Both the position numbers and the translations under genes were made by a program. The notes beneath the pieces were generated by a model. That model saw only the letters and a list, made by a program, of their open reading frames with translations. It was not told the DNA's origin and ran no database searches. From positions 1 to 20,653 of IMG/VR virus record IMGVR_UViG_3300021425_000235: a stretch of DNA of 20,653 nucleotides, one strand, 5' to 3'. This document shows positions 4,981 through 20,637 of the stretch, in pieces. The DNA comes from a virus. Position 1 is the first letter of the stretch. Every line of letters begins with the position of its first letter.

Positions 4981-5341
4981 GATCTACCTTCTTCTTAATT
5001 ATGTTTATTTCTTCAGTAGAAAGTAGTGAAAGAGCAGAACGAGCCTTACTATTGCTATATCCATAATATTCTTTCACCGCTTCAAGACTTCCATCCTCAA
5101 TAGTTTTATTCCATTTGGAGAACCGTTTTGGATTTTTTCTAATAGTATTTAGCAAAAAGTCATTTTGGAGTTTTGTGTCAATATTATGGTAGACGTTCAT
5201 TTCATTAGCAAGTAGAACAGTATCAGGGAAGTAGGAAAAGGAATGATTAATCATATATGAGTTGTATGCTTTCTCATCTAGATCATCACGCATGATATCT
5301 TTTTTAGTATTAATCGCCTTGACGAACTCGAATGGATTCAT
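4946..5341 (-). CDS. 62: Clamp-loader small subunit (gp62-like)
   Basis: This protein pairs with gp44 to load the gp45 sliding clamp on primer-template DNA. It has 131 residues against 187 in T4; short versions are usual in marine relatives as far as I recall. The start MNPFEFVKAINTKKDIM, the central SYFPDTVLLANEMN and KNPKRFSKW, and the position between gp44 and regA support the call. The C-terminus is strongly basic (KKKVDHGGRKKRSKSS). It overlaps the upstream nucleotidyltransferase by 32 nt and RegA by 35 nt, which suggests translational coupling. In T4, genes 44 and 62 are adjacent; here two accessory genes lie between them. Confidence 0.85.
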   Translation of the reverse strand: MNPFEFVKAINTKKDIMRDDLDEKAYNSYMINHSFSYFPDTVLLANEMNVYHNIDTKLQNDFLLNTIRKNPKRFSKWNKTIEDGSLEAVKEYYGYSNSKARSALSLLSTEEINIIKKKVDHGGRKKRSKSS

Positions 5342-5741
5342 TGGAAACTCTTTCTCTCAAATCAGAAGATGAAAAACGATGTTCACGTTTGTTGTAGTAT
5401 AACTCAATTCCACGTTTTGCGCAAGCTGCACGTCCTGTGAACTTACCGTTTTTATACTCTTCTCCCAGAATACGAACATTGATAGGAAACATATTTAAAA
5501 TATCTTCTAAGTCCTGTTCAGTCTGGTAAGGAACAATCTCATCAACATATGAAATAGCATTAAGTTGAATGTATCGTTCTAGTAGAGTCTGAACAGGTTT
5601 GTTCTTTTCTGGACGGTCAATAGATGGATCAGTCTGTAGACCTACAATTAAATAATCGCAAATAGTTTTTGCTTCACGCAACATCATAACATGACCAGCA
5701 TGAAGCAAATCAAAAGTGCTACAGGTGAAACCTACTTTCAT
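5310..5741 (-). CDS. Cytidylyltransferase-like nucleotidyltransferase (TagD type)
   Basis: A 143-residue single-domain protein of the HIGH-superfamily nucleotidyltransferases. The N-terminus FTCSTFDLLHAGHVMMLREA carries the HxGH nucleotide-binding motif, and the C-terminal HRFSSSDLRERV matches the position and style of the second family motif (normally ...TSxLR). Glycerol-3-phosphate cytidylyltransferase (TagD) is the nearest well-known relative and has a similar length; it forms CDP-glycerol from CTP and glycerol-3-phosphate. The true substrate cannot be read from sequence, and related phage enzymes could modify sugars, lipids or nucleotides. It overlaps the glutaredoxin by 4 nt and gp62 by 32 nt, inserted in the clamp-loader operon. 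Confidence 0.85.
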   Translation of the reverse strand: MKVGFTCSTFDLLHAGHVMMLREAKTICDYLIVGLQTDPSIDRPEKNKPVQTLLERYIQLNAISYVDEIVPYQTEQDLEDILNMFPINVRILGEEYKNGKFTGRAACAKRGIELYYNKREHRFSSSDLRERVSNESIRVRQGD

Positions 5742-6007
5742 TTCACCTCATCCAAATGACCAATGTATTGTTCAAGAATACCTTGAGTAAAGTCTTCTGT
5801 GGTCACATTCGAATTTACATTAGCATTACCATAGTAGAGTTGTGGTACAGTTTTATGCCCTTTATCCAAGACGATAAATGCCTTTGCTTGCTCATCTGCC
5901 TTGATATTTACAATTTCGTATTTGTATCCCCAACGATCAAGTTTAGACTTCATCATATCGCAATACATGCAGTTAGGTTGTGTGTAAAGGGTTAGTGTAT
6001 GCTTCAT
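5738..6007 (-). CDS. Glutaredoxin
   Basis: An 89-residue thioredoxin-fold protein with a CMYC redox centre in YTQPNCMYCDMMK near the N-terminus and the cis-proline segment KTVPQLYYG about 50 residues later, both expected for glutaredoxin. It would reduce disulfides and probably supply electrons to ribonucleotide reductase, as T4 NrdC does. The frame opens further upstream to 6043, but GGAGG inside the end of gp44 points to ATG 6013 (4 nt away) or ATG 6007 (10 nt away). I chose 6007 because it forms an ATGA overlap with the gp44 stop; 6013 is nearly as likely and adds two residues. It is followed with overlap by the nucleotidyltransferase. Confidence 0.88.
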   Translation of the reverse strand: MKHTLTLYTQPNCMYCDMMKSKLDRWGYKYEIVNIKADEQAKAFIVLDKGHKTVPQLYYGNANVNSNVTTEDFTQGILEQYIGHLDEVK

Positions 6008-6939
6008 TTCCATTCTACCTCCGCCATAAGTTCTGTTAGACAAGCGACCACATTTAGTTCATGGTCTGCTACGAATGCATTCTTATACTGATAGTCTGCT
6101 AGAATAAGCACAGCACGGGGAATGCTATTGGGTTGCATAGTTTCTGTCATAGAGTCATAAATGCTTCTGAAGATACCAGAAGTATCTGTATCTATATTGT
6201 TGCTTACCCATGACCTCATTTTTTTGAAATCTTTAGCTTTAAGATATCCAATAACATCATTAACGGCATTGTTAGAAAGAAGAGACAGAATCCCACTATC
6301 AATAGTGCCACTAAGAGAATAACGCTGACACTCATTAATAACCCGTCGCCAATCAGGTGCAAACCGAATGATAAGTTCTGCCAAAACCTTTTTATCATAG
6401 GTGATAGTCTCCTGATCTAGAATCCATCCTAGACGTTTCATGAACTGCATAGACAGTTCTGCCATAGACTTCTTGCTGGTGTTAAACTCATAGACACCAC
6501 AACGGGAATGTAGTGGTTCAATAATACGGTTCTTAAAGTTACAGGTCAGAATGAATCGGCAGTTGTTTGCAAACTCTTCAATGAAACCACGCAGGGCAGG
6601 TTGAAACGACTGAGCATTTAGGTAGTCTGCCTCATCTAGAATGACTACCTTGTATCCACCCTGTAGGGATACAGTAGAGGCAAACTGTTTGATTTTAGTC
6701 CTAAGAGTATCAATACCAGACTCTTCACTACCGTTAATCAGAATCCAGTCAAGGTTCAGTTCATTACAGATAGCTTTAGCAACAGTCGTTTTACCAAGTC
6801 CAGCTGTTCCGGAGAATAGCATGTTAGGGATTTCACCAGTCTCCACAATCTGCTGAAAGGTTTCTTTTAATGTTGAGGGGAGAATGCAATCATCAATCTT
6901 TTGTGGTCGGTATTTTTCTACCCAAAGAAAATCAGTCAT
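6004..6939 (-). CDS. 44: Clamp-loader ATPase large subunit (gp44-like)
   Basis: An AAA+ ATPase that opens and loads the gp45 clamp with gp62; 311 residues, close to T4 gp44. It starts with the RFC-like WVEKYRPQKIDD. Walker A is GTAGLGKT (44-51), Walker B LDEADYL with DEAD at 102-105, sensor 1 LTCNF (131-135) and the SRC arginine-finger motif at 145-147. The frame opens with a TTG at 6942, but the ATG at 6939 has AAGGA at good spacing and is the better start. It is the first gene after a terminator-promoter joint, so it leads the gp44-glutaredoxin-nucleotidyltransferase-gp62-regA unit. All ATPase residues are intact. Confidence 0.96.
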   Translation of the reverse strand: MTDFLWVEKYRPQKIDDCILPSTLKETFQQIVETGEIPNMLFSGTAGLGKTTVAKAICNELNLDWILINGSEESGIDTLRTKIKQFASTVSLQGGYKVVILDEADYLNAQSFQPALRGFIEEFANNCRFILTCNFKNRIIEPLHSRCGVYEFNTSKKSMAELSMQFMKRLGWILDQETITYDKKVLAELIIRFAPDWRRVINECQRYSLSGTIDSGILSLLSNNAVNDVIGYLKAKDFKKMRSWVSNNIDTDTSGIFRSIYDSMTETMQPNSIPRAVLILADYQYKNAFVADHELNVVACLTELMAEVEWK

Positions 6940-10534: not shown

Positions 10535-10564
10535 AAGGGGGGCTATTTCAGTCCCCCTTTTTTT
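10535..10564 (+). terminator. Rho-independent terminator after the membrane protein gene
   Basis: A 10-bp stem (AAGGGGGGCT pairing with AGTCCCCCTT, one G-T pair) with loop ATTTC, followed by a T-run into 10564. It separates the membrane gene from the synthetase gene, for which I see no clear promoter in the 27 nt that remain. Confidence 0.88.
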
Positions 10565-10591: not shown

Positions 10592-11407
10592 ATGACACAG
10601 TTAATTGATCCAACGAAATTTACAAATGCAGTAAGCAAATTAAGAACATTCTTTATGGAAAAAGGTTTCGAAGAAGTTCATACACAAAACAGACTTAGCA
10701 TTTTAGCAGCATGTGAAGACCCATTTAATGTTGCCACCTACAAATATGAAGGCCGTGTATGGCCATTGCCACAGACAGGTCAGATGTGGTTAGAACACGA
10801 ATTACTTACTAAACCTTCTTCAAAAGGTTTTTTTTGTGTCTCAACTTCTTACAGACAAGAACCTAATGCTATTCCGGGCAGACACGATACAATCTTTCCA
10901 ATGTTTGAATTTGAAATGCCGGGTGATATTAATGACCTTGAAGCAATGGAACACGAACTGTGCGAGTATATGGGATTTGGTGATATCACTGGTAAGACCT
11001 ATGCTGAGTGGCAGAAAGAATATAATGTAGATGGTGAACTAGAAGACGAACACGAAAAGAAGATGTATCAAGAATACGGTTCTACAATGATCAAAGACTT
11101 CCCTGAGTTTACTTCACCGTTTTGGAACATGTCCAGATACGAAGATGGAGTAACATCCAAAAAGATTGATGTTATCTTGGGTGGTATGGAAACTATTGGT
11201 TCAGCGGAACGATCTACAGATGTTAAACAGATGAGAGATACATTCCATACGATTGCAAATGGTGAGTATGCTAACTTACTGTTTGATTTGTTTGGTAGAG
11301 GACGTGTTGAAAACGAATTGGAAGAGTTTTTGAAGTATGACTTCTTCCCTAGAGTTGGTGGTGGTATTGGCATGACTCGTATGATTGCTGCACTAGACAA
11401 ACTCTAA
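10592..11407 (+). CDS. Class II aminoacyl-tRNA-synthetase-like catalytic core (Asp/Asn type)
   Basis: A 271-residue protein with the class II adenylate-forming fold. Motif 2 is YRQEPNAIPGRHDTIFPMFE (R88, E90; the Arg activates ATP). The segment GGMETIGSAER near 198 resembles the Asp/Asn enzyme loop, and motif 3 is GGGIGMTR (R263). TGQMWLE near 62 recalls the substrate-site segment of Asp/AsnRS. Full enzymes have over 430 residues including an anticodon-binding domain; here the protein is only the catalytic core. It could charge a tRNA through acceptor contacts alone, be an asparagine synthetase of the archaeal AspRS-like kind, or modify another molecule. A tRNA with anticodon GTT starts 9 nt after its stop on the same strand, which favours a tRNA-linked role. 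Confidence 0.82.
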   Translation: MTQLIDPTKFTNAVSKLRTFFMEKGFEEVHTQNRLSILAACEDPFNVATYKYEGRVWPLPQTGQMWLEHELLTKPSSKGFFCVSTSYRQEPNAIPGRHDTIFPMFEFEMPGDINDLEAMEHELCEYMGFGDITGKTYAEWQKEYNVDGELEDEHEKKMYQEYGSTMIKDFPEFTSPFWNMSRYEDGVTSKKIDVILGGMETIGSAERSTDVKQMRDTFHTIANGEYANLLFDLFGRGRVENELEEFLKYDFFPRVGGGIGMTRMIAALDKL

Positions 11408-11416
11408 AAAGAACAA

Positions 11417-11502
11417 TCCGGGGTGGTGAAATAGGTAAACACGCACGACCGTTTATCGTGTGCTTAATAGGCTTGAAGGTTCGATTCCTTCTCCCGGAGC
11501 CA
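11417..11502 (+). tRNA. Unusual tRNA, anticodon GTT (Asn) on a long-variable-arm body
   Basis: An 86-nt cloverleaf with encoded CCA. Acceptor TCCGGGG/TCCCGGA; D arm GTG/CAC with an 11-nt loop holding GG; anticodon stem CACGA/TCGTG (five pairs) with loop CCGTTTA; T arm GAAGG/CCTTC with loop TTCGATT. The anticodon position reads GTT (11451-11453). G73 and the U1-A72 pair also fit tRNA-Asn. Yet the D arm is nearly that of tRNA-Leu, and the variable region is 14 nt (11461-11474), which is type II (Leu, Ser, Tyr) and not Asn. Position 33 is C instead of the almost universal T, and 37 is T instead of A. It may be a functional odd tRNA-Asn, a drifting relic of tRNA-Leu, or a tRNA-like RNA with another use. 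Confidence 0.82.
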
Positions 11503-11504
11503 AT

Positions 11505-11537
11505 AAAAAGAGGGAGTTTTTTGCTCCCTCTTTTTTT
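11505..11537 (+). terminator. Bidirectional terminator after the synthetase-tRNA unit
   Basis: A stem of AAAGAGGGAG pairing with CTCCCTCTTT, loop TTTTTTG, then a T-run on the plus strand. The minus strand also gives a T-rich tract after the stem, so it can end the convergent minus-strand unit at 11569 as well. Confidence 0.9.
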
Positions 11538-12629: not shown

Positions 12630-12830
12630 TTATTTTTTTCCAACTACTTTACAGTCTATCATGAATACCTGATATGTATCATCTGGACCAGCATTGTTTT
12701 TTAGTCTGCTATATTCATCCATTGCCTCATAGTAAGGCAGTCTGGCGGACACCGTTGTAGGAGGCGCCCACCAGTCTCTGTCATCATAATGGATGACAAC
12801 ATAGAGATTGGTTAATTCGGCAGTGATGCC
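12630..12830 (-). CDS. Reading frame without a normal start codon, protein-like
   Basis: The frame is open for 66 codons between an in-frame TGA at 12831-12833 and TAA at 12630-12632, and the terminator follows at once. The translation from about 12800 looks like a real small protein: NLYVVIHYDDRDWW, then APPTTVSARLPYYEAMDEYSRLKN, then DTYQVFMIDCKVVGKK (strands and one helix). There is no ATG before residue 30 of that stretch, nor a GTG or TTG with a ribosome site. It overlaps the 3' end of the BMP gene. Options are a rare start codon coupled to BMP termination (an ATC is available near 12827), a frameshift from BMP, a sequencing error, or a decayed gene. Confidence 0.4.
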   Translation of the reverse strand, partial: GITAELTNLYVVIHYDDRDWWAPPTTVSARLPYYEAMDEYSRLKNNAGPDDTYQVFMIDCKVVGKK

Positions 12831-13915
12831 TCAATTCCTTCTACATACCAATCCATAGACAGCAGAGTTGGCCAGTCATCCAAATGTTCTGCACCAGCAG
12901 CACACTCATCAGGAACAGAACCATCTTGCTTCAGTAGACCTTCACATGGGAATGCATGACGATCACCATTTGCCAGTGCTGCCTCAAGCGCCAATGCTTC
13001 TGCTACAAGGTCTTCACCCATAGCATCTACATTGTAACTCTCAAGAGCAACCATGCCTACTTCACCACCTTTACCGTCTTTAGTGAAACCCCACCAAGTA
13101 TCGCCACCAGTCCATGTGCCGTCCATTACCTGACCTACACGGTCAACATAGTAAGAATCCCAATCATCTACAATAGAAACAAGATGCGCATTAGGACCAA
13201 AGGCAGACATGTTAGATGCCTGACCAAATGCATAGACACCAGCATTTTCTGCTACTTGTACAGGTGCAGGAGAGTCAGTATGCTGCACAATAATATCAGC
13301 ACCTTCGTCAATCAGTGCCTGTGCAGCACCAGCTTCCTTAGCAGGATCAAACCATGTATACAACCAAATAATATCTACTTCAATATCAGGGTTATGTTTC
13401 TGTGCTTCCAGCATGAATGCGTTAATACCACGCACTACTTCTGGAATAGGGAATGATGCAATATAACCAATTTTATTTGTTTCGGTCATATTAGCAGCAA
13501 TCATACCTTGGACTACACGACCTTCATAGAATCGTGCAGAGAAAGTAGACATATTGTCAGTGTCACGAATGTAACCTGTAGCATGTTCAAATGCTACTTC
13601 TGGATAGTTGGCAGCAACTTCGTTAGTTGCATCCATATAACCAAAAGAGGTTGTAAAGATAATATCATGACCAGTTTCAGCAAGCTGAGTGATTGCCTCT
13701 ACTGCTTCTGGACCTTCTGGAACCATTTCCAAATAGGTAGTAGACACGTCAGGACCATAGGCTTCTTCTACAGCAAGACGACCAACATCATGTCGGTATG
13801 TCCAGCCAAGATCACCAATTGGACCTACATAAATGAAACCTACTTTGGTTTCAGCAAATGCAGCAGTTGCAGTTGCAATAGTGAGTGTTAGGGATGCTAG
13901 AATATTCTTAAGCAT
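12812..13915 (-). CDS. BMP-family ABC-transporter substrate-binding protein
   Basis: A 367-residue periplasmic binding protein of the BMP/PnrA (Med) type, whose characterised members bind purine nucleosides and related compounds. The signal peptide MLKNILASLTLTIATATAAFA-E has a basic start, a hydrophobic core and an AFA cleavage site, with no lipobox Cys. The mature part starts TKVGFIYVGPIGDLGWTYRHD, the family N-terminal strand and ligand loop; SFGYMDA, ARFYEGRVVQGMIA and DIIVQHTDSPAPVQVAE follow as the usual two-lobe fold. The phage gene would supply a binding protein to a host permease, as no permease for it is visible. It follows PstS across a terminator. The ligand cannot be fixed from sequence. 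Confidence 0.9.
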   Translation of the reverse strand: MLKNILASLTLTIATATAAFAETKVGFIYVGPIGDLGWTYRHDVGRLAVEEAYGPDVSTTYLEMVPEGPEAVEAITQLAETGHDIIFTTSFGYMDATNEVAANYPEVAFEHATGYIRDTDNMSTFSARFYEGRVVQGMIAANMTETNKIGYIASFPIPEVVRGINAFMLEAQKHNPDIEVDIIWLYTWFDPAKEAGAAQALIDEGADIIVQHTDSPAPVQVAENAGVYAFGQASNMSAFGPNAHLVSIVDDWDSYYVDRVGQVMDGTWTGGDTWWGFTKDGKGGEVGMVALESYNVDAMGEDLVAEALALEAALANGDRHAFPCEGLLKQDGSVPDECAAGAEHLDDWPTLLSMDWYVEGIEASLPN

Positions 13916-13942
13916 GGTTTGCAGTTTCCTTGTTTTATATTT

Positions 13943-13974
13943 AAAAAAGAAAAGGGAACATAAGTTCCCCTTTC
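13943..13974 (-). terminator. Terminator or attenuator between PstS and the BMP gene
   Basis: Minus-strand stem AAAGGGGAAC/GTTCCCTTTT (one G-T pair) with loop TTAT, then CTTTTTT. A TATAAA lies just after it but without a good -35 box, so BMP expression may depend on read-through. Confidence 0.8.
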
Positions 13975-13985
13975 CAACTTATCCC

Positions 13986-14975
13986 TTAGAGGGATTCGAG
14001 CGCCTCATACATAGCGTCTTGATCATCATCCCCACCGGGAATCAGACCTTCATCTACCAGAGGACCATCAGGACCAGCCATGAGTACAAACTCTTCAGAG
14101 TACTCTGCCAGACCTTCAATTACTCCAATGTGGTTATTCTTCACATAGAAGTAGAGAGAACGAGAGATTGGATAATCACCAGAGGCAATATTTTCAAACT
14201 CAGGTTCTACATCATTAATTACAGCACCTTTAATAAGGTCTGCATTGTTCTGTAAAAAGGAGAAACCAAAAATTCCTACAGCATATTCATCTTGTGTAAG
14301 CTGACCAATAATCAGGTTATCGTTTTCACCAGACTCAACATATACACCATCAGCACGAACCTTTGCTGACTTATATACATCTTTAGAACAACCAAGATGC
14401 TTCAGACCATCCTGTACTACCAGTTCCATGTATGCATCACGAGTACCAGAAGATGATGGCGGACCGAGAAGCATAATGTCAAAGTCTGGAAGTGCTGGAT
14501 TGATATCAGACCACTTAGTATATGGATTAGCAGTCATAGAAGTGCAGTCCGCATTTGGAATTTCTTCTACAGTTGCCAGTGCCAACTCTTCAATGGTGAA
14601 CGCAAGGTCTACACCATCAATAGAGTTAGAGATAACGATACCGTCGTAGCCAATCATAAATTCAGTAAACTCTACACCGTTAGCGGCACAGGTTTCTGCT
14701 TCAGATGATTTCATTGCACGGGATGCATTAGTTACATCTGGGTGGTCAAGACCAACACCAGAACAGAACAACTTCATACCGCCACCAGAGCCAGTAGACT
14801 CAATAACTGGAGTGTTGAAGTCAGATGCTTCCCCAAACGTTTCAGCAACTTTAGAAGCGAATGGGTAAACGGTAGATGAACCAACAATAGAAATAGTGTT
14901 GGCACGATCAGCGACTGCTGCGGACGTGGCGATTAAACTCACGAACATTGCAATCATTACGTTAAATGCTCTCAT
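13986..14975 (-). CDS. pstS: Phosphate-binding periplasmic protein (PstS-like)
   Basis: A 329-residue high-affinity phosphate-binding protein. The signal peptide MRAFNVMIAMFVSLIATSAAVA is followed by NTISIVGSSTVYPFASKVAETF, the classical PstS start in which GSSTVYPF contributes to the phosphate site. TGSGGGMKLFCSG and NASRAMK follow, then GPPSSSGTRDAYMEL, the second phosphate loop (SSGTR), and the late YFYVKNNHIG. All ligand segments are intact. It is separated by 21 nt from the PiT permease, so the two are one operon. pstS is a known phage-borne metabolic gene in marine phages, thought to keep phosphate uptake going during infection. No PHO-box could be identified with confidence. Confidence 0.95.
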   Translation of the reverse strand: MRAFNVMIAMFVSLIATSAAVADRANTISIVGSSTVYPFASKVAETFGEASDFNTPVIESTGSGGGMKLFCSGVGLDHPDVTNASRAMKSSEAETCAANGVEFTEFMIGYDGIVISNSIDGVDLAFTIEELALATVEEIPNADCTSMTANPYTKWSDINPALPDFDIMLLGPPSSSGTRDAYMELVVQDGLKHLGCSKDVYKSAKVRADGVYVESGENDNLIIGQLTQDEYAVGIFGFSFLQNNADLIKGAVINDVEPEFENIASGDYPISRSLYFYVKNNHIGVIEGLAEYSEEFVLMAGPDGPLVDEGLIPGGDDDQDAMYEALESL

Positions 14976-14996
14976 CTTTTTCTCCTTTAAAGAACA

Positions 14997-15947
14997 TTAT
15001 TGTGGTTGTAACAGTGTGTGAATCATAATCACAATACCAACAGAAGCAGCAAGTCCAATCATCATCTTAAAGAAGTCTTTACCAACAAGTGGGAAGACTG
15101 AACGGAACTTACGTTTCTGAGTAAAGCTTGCGATTGCTAATTCACGACCTGTTAACAGACCAATGAATACCCAAGTGGTAGACATTGGAATATCGTTCCA
15201 CTCCTTGAAGAACCACAAGATCAAGAAGTAGAATAGGTCAATGATAGTTGCGGAACGCACATACCGAGTATTGTGTTTCTCCAATACGACGGTTTGAATA
15301 CGTCCACCATTTTCTCTGAACATCCAGTAAAGACCAGATACAAAAATAACAGAGATTGCGAACATCATTTCAATCGGGACTTGACGTGGCAGGAACACCG
15401 CAATGTTTGCCATGTCGTGGCTGAGCCATGTATACCACAAGAACCCTGTAGTTACCCACTGAGCAACTACCCAATACTTTTTGTGTTCATCCTTTACAGG
15501 ATTAGACTCATCCAAGAGTTTACTGATAACAAACCAGATACCATAGGCAGATACAGCAGCAATAGCATATCCCATAATCGACTTGACCAGCATCTTTTCC
15601 AACACAAAGGTTGAAGCAAATGCAGATAGGACAAGGAACGATGTAGACACAGGAACACCAAATCTAGTCAGTACAAGGAGTACCGCTGGAGCGAGTGCAT
15701 GATACCATTGAATTTCTTGGAAGGGAATTTTGTTAAGTCGGCCGTAGGAGATATCACCTCCATTTGAATACCAACCGAACCAAATAGTAAAGAGTAGGAC
15801 TGCTGACGCTGCTGCCCACATAATCATACGATTTGTTTTTTGATTTGAAGCGATCCATGTTCCGAGCGTCTGAACAGAATCGTTAGCGATTACTGAGTAG
15901 GATGCAAGTAGGAAACCTACAATCATCCAGATTGAAATATAGTCCAT
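14997..15947 (-). CDS. PiT-family inorganic phosphate transporter
   Basis: A 316-residue membrane protein with about eight to ten hydrophobic segments. The two inverted half-signatures of the PiT (PHO4) family can be seen: VIANDSVQTLGTW near residue 20 with GVPVSTSF about 75 residues later, and LSHDMANIAVFLPR near 175 with IPMSTTW about 75 residues later. The paired aspartates and the P.ST. loops are the phosphate and cation sites. It is much shorter than E. coli PitA (about 500). It would import phosphate with H+ or Na+ across the inner membrane. It precedes pstS by 21 nt, which gives one phage operon a permease of one system and a binding protein of another. Confidence 0.82.
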   Translation of the reverse strand: MDYISIWMIVGFLLASYSVIANDSVQTLGTWIASNQKTNRMIMWAAASAVLLFTIWFGWYSNGGDISYGRLNKIPFQEIQWYHALAPAVLLVLTRFGVPVSTSFLVLSAFASTFVLEKMLVKSIMGYAIAAVSAYGIWFVISKLLDESNPVKDEHKKYWVVAQWVTTGFLWYTWLSHDMANIAVFLPRQVPIEMMFAISVIFVSGLYWMFRENGGRIQTVVLEKHNTRYVRSATIIDLFYFLILWFFKEWNDIPMSTTWVFIGLLTGRELAIASFTQKRKFRSVFPLVGKDFFKMMIGLAASVGIVIMIHTLLQPQ

Positions 15948-15998: not shown

Positions 15999-16073
15999 TG
16001 GAGCGGGTAGACGGAATCGAACCGACATCATCTGCTTGGAAGGCAGAGGTAATAGCCTTTATACGATACCCGC
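15999..16073 (-). tRNA. tRNA-Gly (anticodon TCC)
   Basis: A 75-nt cloverleaf with encoded CCA. Acceptor GCGGGTA/TACCCGC, anticodon stem TCTGC/GCAGA, loop CTTCCAA (T33, anticodon TCC), T loop TTCGATT. The D stem is short (GTA/TAC) and the T stem has one T-T mismatch at its second pair. The gene lies 10 nt after the stop of the 86-residue gene and is probably cut from a longer transcript. It reads GGA and, by wobble, GGG codons. Confidence 0.92.
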
Positions 16074-18764: not shown

Positions 18765-20242
18765 ACCTTAACCTCAAAGATTTCAAAATCAAACTCTTCT
18801 TTTTTATATATTTTCATACGTTCAATCGCATGAATAAGAGTATAGTTCTTTTTCTGCCTATAGTGCATATCATCCATCAGGTCAAAGAGTACAGTAGTTC
18901 TACCGTCTTCAGACTTTCTAAGACCACGACCAATAGACTGCAATACTTTTACCTGAGATTTAGAAGGTGATGCAAAGATGATATTGTGTAGATTTTTGAT
19001 ATTTACTCCTGTAGAGAACGTTCCTAAGCTGGCAACAATAATAGCATTCTTTTGTTTTTCTACAATACCACGGATTTCTTCACGGACTTCAGCATCTACT
19101 TCACCTGATACATAGAACACTTTTCTTTTCTTGTGTGCTTTGTCTTTGATAAGTTCATAGAGTGGTTTACCGTGTTTTTCGACATATTGAAACAATACTA
19201 GCGTATTGCCTTCCTGCTCTAATGCTAGATTAGTAATTAGTCTATTGCGTTTGATATTACCAACTATATAGTCAATCTCATAGTGGTAGTCTTTACTATT
19301 GACAATATCCTTAGAGACTTCATCAGGGTATTTTAGAGCAAGAATATTAATCTTTAGGTCTGCTAGTGTATCTTCATCCATAAGTTTTCGTGTAGTAGTA
19401 ACTTTATATACTCTGCCGAATAACCCTTCCAAAACAAGTTTGTGCGTCTGTGTGCCGTCTAGAGTGCCAGTAGTGCCTATTCTATACTCTGCTTCTCTAG
19501 ATTTGTTCATCAGGCCTGATAAAGACTTTGCTTTGAAGTTATGGACTTCATCACCAAAGATACAACCAAACTGTTCAAACCATGTAGAAGGTAACTTATA
19601 GATTGACTGCCATGTAGAAATGAATACTCTCTGTGGAATATTATTCTTAGGCATACCAGAATAGATTCTGTGACAGACTTCTGCTGCTTCTAAACCATAG
19701 TTATCAAAGTCAGAGAACATCTGCTGAACAAGTGATGTAGTAGGAACAACAATAAGAACACGTTTGTTATAGTGTTCCAGATACCACATCATCAGAACAT
19801 AGATGATAAGAGACTTACCTGAACCTGTAGGAGACAGCAGAATAGCACGTTTTGACCTTAGTGCCTGACAGATAGCATCAAACTGATAGTCTCTTACTTC
19901 AAAAGGTAAGTTCAGTTTCTGAATAAACTCATAGACTTCTTTAGGGTCTACTAACGATTTAGTGTCAGGTGCGCCATACTGATTGTCATATTCTACTTCT
20001 AATGTATAGTTTCTTGGTTTGATAAAGTCTGACAGATATTCCCAGAGACCAACAGGCAGTTCATTATTGCGGTTATTAAATAGTCTGGTCTTACCGTCCC
20101 ATTTACCACTCTTATAAGCTGGCATGTATTTGTAACCCGGAGTTTCAAATGAGAAGTAATCTGTCAACTCATTTGAAACATGTGGTTCACACTGGATTTC
20201 TAGTGCAGAATAGTTTTTCTGTCTAACTAATAAATCTGTCAT
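18761..20242 (-). CDS. uvsW: UvsW-like superfamily 2 helicase
   Basis: A 493-residue SF2 helicase; T4 UvsW unwinds branched DNA and R-loops and helps switch from origin-dependent to recombination-dependent replication. An N-terminal substrate domain of about 110 residues contains YMPAYKSGKWDGKTRLF. Q-motif-like VRDYQFDAI is near 117, Walker A SPTGSGKS at 137-144, motif Ia VVPTTSLVQQ, DEVH at 231-234, motif III GTTGTL, motif V SLGTFSTGVNIKNL, and motif VI QSIGRGLRKS near 440. All ATPase motifs are present. It starts in a TAATG overlap with the phosphoribosyltransferase and overlaps the acidic gene by 4 nt. Length and domain order match T4 UvsW (about 500). Confidence 0.96.
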   Translation of the reverse strand: MTDLLVRQKNYSALEIQCEPHVSNELTDYFSFETPGYKYMPAYKSGKWDGKTRLFNNRNNELPVGLWEYLSDFIKPRNYTLEVEYDNQYGAPDTKSLVDPKEVYEFIQKLNLPFEVRDYQFDAICQALRSKRAILLSPTGSGKSLIIYVLMMWYLEHYNKRVLIVVPTTSLVQQMFSDFDNYGLEAAEVCHRIYSGMPKNNIPQRVFISTWQSIYKLPSTWFEQFGCIFGDEVHNFKAKSLSGLMNKSREAEYRIGTTGTLDGTQTHKLVLEGLFGRVYKVTTTRKLMDEDTLADLKINILALKYPDEVSKDIVNSKDYHYEIDYIVGNIKRNRLITNLALEQEGNTLVLFQYVEKHGKPLYELIKDKAHKKRKVFYVSGEVDAEVREEIRGIVEKQKNAIIVASLGTFSTGVNIKNLHNIIFASPSKSQVKVLQSIGRGLRKSEDGRTTVLFDLMDDMHYRQKKNYTLIHAIERMKIYKKEEFDFEIFEVKV

Positions 20243-20637
20243 TATTTGAGGTTAGTTCGCATAGTAGATGGCATTTGAAACAGAACATTAATAGGACCAG
20301 ATACTACATCACGAGCAAACACTGCCCAACAAATAGTTTCATCATCAGGATAATGTTCAATCATATATTCCCTGAAACTAGTGCCTGTTGTATATACATC
20401 ATCTACAATCAGAACAGGGTCATCAGGATTACCTGTAGCAGATTCATTTAGAATATCGCCCAGACGTTTACCACCACGGGGAATACCTACTGCTTTACGA
20501 AACGAACGTGTCTCATACTCTAGGATCATCTTGGCAAGACAACGCCAATCATTCTCATAGAGTGCATCCATTTCAATCTTCCATCCTAGTTTATTACCAG
20601 CATGTGAAATAAAATCTTCGTCAACAAATAAAGCCAT
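20242..20637 (-). CDS. Phosphoribosyltransferase-like protein
   Basis: A 131-residue PRTase-fold protein. The PRPP-binding motif VLIVDDVYTTGTSF is complete, with the two acidic residues and the TTGTS loop, and an upstream GIPRGGKRLGD resembles the first PRPP-site loop. It is short compared with orotate or hypoxanthine PRTases (170-215) and lacks an obvious base-specific hood, so the substrate is unknown; it could salvage a base or be a regulatory relative. The ATG at 20637 has GGGGGT 6 nt upstream. It overlaps UvsW by one base, so it is translated together with the helicase. Its promoter would be outside the window. Confidence 0.87.
   Translation of the reverse strand: MALFVDEDFISHAGNKLGWKIEMDALYENDWRCLAKMILEYETRSFRKAVGIPRGGKRLGDILNESATGNPDDPVLIVDDVYTTGTSFREYMIEHYPDDETICWAVFARDVVSGPINVLFQMPSTMRTNLK

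Follow-up and report, generated by a model that had tools for sequence, protein, structure and literature searches.

A type II tRNA with asparagine identity and its linked asparaginyl-tRNA synthetase-like gene in marine phages

Introduction

The window analysed here is the whole of a 20,653-nucleotide stretch of viral DNA (IMG/VR record IMGVR_UViG_3300021425_000235), and positions 11417-11502 of it were identified by ARAGORN as a tRNA-Asn(gtt). The initial annotation had described this RNA as a chimera, with the D arm and long variable region of a tRNA-Leu, the anticodon and discriminator of a tRNA-Asn, and no U33. What, then, would a phage use such a tRNA for? The identity set for asparagine charging consists of the anticodon, G73 and the U1-A72 pair read by GatCAB. 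U33 and a purine at position 37 serve decoding, and C33 or U37 lowers decoding without abolishing it. The two sets of positions can therefore be followed separately among relatives of the tRNA, together with the gene that lies immediately upstream of it.

Structure and identity of the tRNA

The acceptor stem, parsed by hand, is formed by seven pairs (TCCGGGG/TCCCGGA) and the anticodon stem by five (CACGA/TCGTG), enclosing a loop that reads C32 C33 G34 T35 T36 T37 A38. This is followed by the variable region, TGCTTAATAGGCTT, a T arm with five stem pairs (GAAGG-TTCGATT-CCTTC) and the discriminator G73 (Table 1). The CCA end is encoded in the group to which the window belongs and not in the group of phages P-SSM2 and P-SSM7. 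The Rfam model RF00005 matches the tRNA with 46.1 bits (E 3.9e-7), every aligned stem position being paired, as had been claimed when simple decay was argued against. The folding energy of this copy alone is unremarkable (z -1.1), so that the structural evidence is the covariation among its relatives described below, not stability.

Table 1. Features of the enzyme-tRNA unit in the window
Feature	Position	Strand	Basis or detail
Intrinsic terminator separating the unit from the preceding ORF	10535..10559	+	
AsnRS-like class II catalytic domain, 271 aa, no anticodon-binding domain	10592..11407	+	PF00152, phrog_29758
Asn-identity type II tRNA on a Leu-like body (GUU, U1-A72, G73)	11417..11499	+	ARAGORN, Rfam, covariation, identity
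Leu-type D arm, 3-bp stem GTG/CAC	11426..11442	+	
Anticodon loop CCGTTTA	11449..11455	+	Anticodon GTT 11451-11453; C33 = 11450; T37 = 11454
Variable region, 14 nt	11461..11474	+	
Encoded CCA end	11500..11502	+	Read from sequence
Intrinsic terminator directly behind the tRNA	11505..11535	+	

The tRNA resembles bacterial tRNA-Leu in its D arm, its long variable region and its overall body. Among the tRNAs in hand, the best identity is to a tRNA-Leu (70%), with Ser and Tyr at 56-57%, and tRNA-Leu was the top match of the family covariance model in each of nine cellular genomes for which the best matches were inspected; the Leu-like body originally proposed is thus borne out. It differs from tRNA-Leu in its GUU anticodon, its U1-A72 pair, G73 in place of A73 and a pyrimidine at position 37. 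The anticodon, G73 and U1-A72 are instead those of bacterial tRNA-Asn, from which it departs by its type II body, whose variable region is longer still in many relatives than in the window, by the usual lack of a purine at position 37 in the phage family and, in the window copy, by the lack of U33. No type II tRNA-Asn was found among the best family-model matches inspected in cellular genomes, which were ordinary tRNA-Leu.

A second tRNA in the window, a tRNA-Gly (TCC) at 15999-16073 on the minus strand, has ordinary features.

Conservation of the tRNA family

Scans anchored on the upstream enzyme gene recovered 99 distinct tRNAs of this family downstream of it. In an alignment of 28 of the family sequences, 20 of 20 pairs form in every sequence, with a covariation of 0.756, against 0.203 for shuffled and at most 0.15 for slid controls. 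Chance or decay as the origin of the window tRNA was rejected on the basis of this covariation and the 99 relatives. The whole family retains the unusual type II body, although the length of the variable region varies widely, whole tRNAs measuring 80-107 nt.

The positions used for charging and those used for decoding behave differently. GTT, U1-A72 and G73 are invariant in all 99 distinct tRNAs, confirming the asparagine identity read from the window copy. This invariance across a broad, old family lends no support to the earlier suggestion of an evolving anticodon switch. These anticodon statistics were taken from the enzyme-anchored set only, since the tRNA-anchored patterns fixed TGTT (first scan) or CTGTTTA (second scan). 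At position 37, 90 of the tRNAs have T, two C and seven A, so that 92 of 99 lack a purine there. At position 33, 86 have T, 12 C and one G. The C33 and T37 of the window, both noticed at the outset, are therefore of unequal standing: loss of U33 (13/99) is a local trait spread over several lineages, while a non-purine at 37 is the family norm. All 88 other distinct tRNAs from the same kind of phage contigs keep both U33 and a purine at 37 (Fisher, family against these controls: 2e-45 at position 37, 2e-4 at position 33, related sequences not being independent).

As the identity for asparagine charging is kept while the decoding positions are relaxed, the family tRNA appears to be under selection for charging with asparagine and under weak selection for efficient decoding. 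The invariance of GUU would be expected just as much if the tRNA decoded. The proposal of poor decoding, or of a function off the ribosome, fits the relaxed positions 33 and 37, set against the normal tRNAs of the same phages.

For about 20 family tRNAs of around 100 nt, ARAGORN errs on isotype or anticodon (various loci among L012-L085), and it overlooks some others; the anticodon errors arise from the long variable arm. The other anticodons that it suggested (Glu, Asp, Ile, Ala, Thr, Leu and stop) were rejected, as direct parsing gave GTT in all. At one further locus (L353), a family-like tRNA lies about 225 bases behind the enzyme gene and has mismatches at pairs 1 and 2 and A73; it is perhaps a decaying exception to the identity set.

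Linkage of the tRNA to an upstream gene

The ORF directly upstream ends ten bases before the tRNA on the same strand, and the layout of the two terminators suggests that the two genes form one transcription unit. This AsnRS-like gene is the key fact overlooked by the initial annotation, whose interpretation was otherwise supported in part. In two IMG/VR scans anchored on the tRNA, the enzyme gene was directly upstream on the same strand in 210 of 210 testable matches (104 and 106, some contigs being present in more than one scan). The remaining matches were cut by contig ends, except for three without a T arm, which were chance matches. No family tRNA without the enzyme was found among the testable matches. 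Beyond these two genes the neighbourhood is not conserved. The same two genes are present in Prochlorococcus phages P-SSM7, P-SSM2 and P-SSM5, where they are annotated as 'tRNA ligase' and 'tRNA-Asn'. The 'tRNA ligase' of P-SSM2 and P-SSM7, T4-GC 194, is listed in PMC3037559, and the two genes have been annotated separately. The P-SSM2 record (AY939844.2; L002) gives 164094-164179, which falls within a coding gene, as the location of its tRNA-Asn; the tRNA actually lies at 162083-162168, directly behind the 'tRNA ligase' gene.

The linkage holds in one direction. Three contigs inside the tRNA-bearing clade (L024, L050 and L071) encode the enzyme with no family tRNA downstream, and the family model found no such tRNA on the whole contigs, with one match of ordinary tRNA length in that of L071 and only 4 kb available for L050. 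Four huge phages (L004, L005, L279 and L280) likewise encode the enzyme without an adjacent tRNA. As the enzyme is kept in places without the tRNA and the tRNA was not found without the enzyme, the tRNA appears to be accessory to the enzyme and dependent on it in distribution, not the reverse, and the enzyme appears to have a use that is independent of the tRNA.

Some neighbouring genes were also recorded. In L286 the enzyme gene comes after a ribonucleotide reductase gene of phage type. A tRNA-bearing contig (L288) has a shortened PyrD-like (dihydroorotate-dehydrogenase-like) gene two genes behind the pair (5324-6025). The window encodes a phosphoribosyltransferase-like protein (20242-20637, minus strand) without a Pfam match of its own, which has 43% identity over 89 aa to a protein in a pyrimidine cluster of Pasteurella atlantica and no match in 50,697 phage records. 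Such a gene lies directly behind the pair in L029, L049, L051 and L055. It was rejected as a stable partner, being present in 5 of 30 enzyme contigs. Genes of phosphate-uptake type, encoding PstS-like and PnrA/Bmp-like binding proteins, occupy 12812-15947 on the minus strand, and an adjoining membrane protein that matches no Pfam family is a possible permease.

The partner enzyme

The enzyme matches the catalytic domain of class II (D, K and N) synthetases and fills its ORF with this domain; the N-terminal anticodon-binding OB domain of AsnRS is absent. An AlphaFold model (pLDDT 92.6) has AsnRS catalytic domains as its nearest solved folds (Z 26.6-27.2), followed by AspRS, EpmA, archaeal asparagine synthetase A (AsnA) and LysRS. 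Class II motifs and Asn-type residues are shared with AsnRS: the Q-x-G-Q-x-W-L-E stretch aligns between the two, as does an arginine located seven residues beyond the conserved glutamate of the ET(I/F)G motif, and in AsnRS both read the asparagine side chain. R88, R263, E68 and R207 are invariant in the enzyme family, with the arginines of motifs 2 and 3 and an Asn-type pocket present. It is probably an Asn-binding catalytic domain. It differs from AsnRS, besides the missing domain, in having EDP in place of the EGG motif and in scoring only 26.3 bits against the AsnRS equivalog TIGR00457 (cut-off 342.6). As a stand-alone class II catalytic domain it resembles archaeal AsnA and EpmA (GenX), which are not ordinary tRNA synthetases (fold Z 24), from which it is set apart by 15.1 bits against the AsnA model PRK06462 (cut-off 389), by a pyrE/pyrD context and, in phages, by its tRNA partner.

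Phage and cellular enzymes share an invariant active site, and the phage enzyme thus probably performs the same chemistry as its cellular homologues. Compared with those homologues, the phage enzymes are more acidic (net charge -20 against -11) and show neither a gain of basic residues nor an evident new basic surface, which argues mildly against a newly gained tRNA-binding function. A search for phage-specific tRNA-binding residues gave no evident candidates: phage-specific positions are few, and most are common to members without the tRNA.

Cellular homologues and pyrimidine genes

A scan of genomes matched 125 homologues. Among the 80 listed, most have 51-65% identity; their hosts include Patescibacteria, Bacteroidota, Midichloriaceae and Pasteurella atlantica, among others, a few listed contigs being phage. 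Nearly all listed cellular homologues lack an adjacent tRNA, so the tRNA is not needed for the basic reaction. Among 75 loci, pyrE is a neighbour in 20 and pyrD in 17; neighbour clusters were named from representatives, and pyrF and a pyrF-pyrE fusion were confirmed.

In 19 genomes with a homologue (G001-G019), aspartate carbamoyltransferase (PyrB) scored over its cut-off in none and the large subunit of carbamoyl-phosphate synthetase was found in one. Dihydroorotase exceeded the TIGR00857 cut-off in none, with weaker matches in seven. Canonical AsnRS was found over its cut-off in 11, and a PyrD-family match, in some cases weak, in 14. In the order of Aureispira, the true enzyme was present in 7 of 149 genomes, of which none had PyrB, against a PyrB match in 126 of the 142 others (Fisher 9e-7). 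In Pasteurellaceae the anticorrelation is uninformative, as PyrB is absent from most relatives too. Outside that family, the cellular homologues are present where PyrB is absent and are clustered with pyr genes.

The proximity to pyrE and pyrD and the absence of PyrB indicate that the enzyme is probably part of an alternative route to pyrimidines that uses asparagine or aspartate. The cellular enzyme seems to replace the first three pyrimidine steps, judging by gene neighbours and missing genes, and its occurrence near pyrE, pyrD and pyrF, in genomes that have no PyrB, mostly no carbamoyl-phosphate synthetase and no dihydroorotase above the cut-off, marks a candidate alternative entry into pyrimidine synthesis. 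Cyclisation of an ATP-activated N-carboxy-asparagine to dihydroorotate is a speculation about the chemistry.

Possible roles of the tRNA

The explanation tentatively favoured here, which may well prove wrong, is that the tRNA has asparagine identity, is charged by the host and serves the partner enzyme chiefly by carrying asparagine, not as an efficient decoder. A body of tRNA-Leu type would have been given the asparagine identity (GUU, G73 and U1-A72). Charging would most likely proceed by a host route that reads the anticodon, namely AsnRS or a non-discriminating AspRS with GatCAB, since a domain for reading the invariant anticodon is missing from the partner enzyme. The charged tRNA would then serve mostly off the ribosome, as suggested by relaxed U33 and purine 37 alongside strict charging identity. 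The reaction of the partner is, speculatively, an ATP-driven step towards dihydroorotate fed by asparagine or aspartate, for which the tRNA would supply or buffer asparagine during phage DNA synthesis. A carrier role off the ribosome fits the pattern at positions 33 and 37, the occurrence of the enzyme without the tRNA and the cellular role. It gives no account of the need for a Leu-type body. In its fullest form, where a phage Asn-tRNA freed from decoding feeds asparagine to an AsnRS-derived enzyme that takes the place of carbamoyl phosphate synthetase, aspartate carbamoyltransferase and dihydroorotase, the proposal is unlikely.

The main rival of a carrier role is a dedicated orthogonal pair, in which a minimal 271-aa AsnRS would read the acceptor end and the Leu-type body and charge only this tRNA, placing the reading of Asn codons under phage control. 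This is somewhat unlikely, although the one-to-one linkage, the AsnRS-like fold and pocket and the invariant GUU and U1-A72/G73 all agree with it, no other tRNA-Asn was found in any phage locus examined, and in P-SSM2 the family tRNA is the sole match of the family model. Set against these are the persistence of the enzyme without the tRNA, the acidity of the phage enzymes and the scarcity of positions specific to them, while a non-purine at 37 and a lost U33 would be odd in a decoding tRNA.

It is improbable that the tRNA is an ordinary supplementary tRNA-Asn which the host charges for use in translation and whose link to the enzyme reflects no more than a shared cassette. Its charging identity elements are complete, phages often carry tRNAs and several others lie near the pair; linkage in every testable match with no free copies, the loss of a purine at 37 that all control tRNAs keep, and the retention of the type II body are not what such a cassette would be expected to give. 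Very improbable is a nuclease decoy or cleavage-resistant substitute shielding Asn decoding from a host anticodon nuclease. With the anticodon itself intact, changed bases at 33 and 37 would alter the nuclease site, but this explains neither the stable Leu-like body nor the obligate pairing with an enzyme of Asn-activating type. Both of these fit less well than a carrier role or an orthogonal pair.

Conclusions

A type II tRNA of asparagine identity is associated with one aminoacyl-tRNA synthetase-like gene in hundreds of marine phage contigs. No description of the pairing, of the type II asparagine identity or of the link to cellular pyrimidine clusters was found in the open-access journal literature searched. 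The association points either to a natural orthogonal pair, based on a minimal synthetase that is blind to the anticodon, or to a tRNA employed outside translation. The cellular relatives of the enzyme point to a solution for missing steps of pyrimidine synthesis in Patescibacteria and some Bacteroidota. If the tRNA does feed asparagine to the enzyme, this would tie tRNA charging to the supply of pyrimidines for phage DNA.
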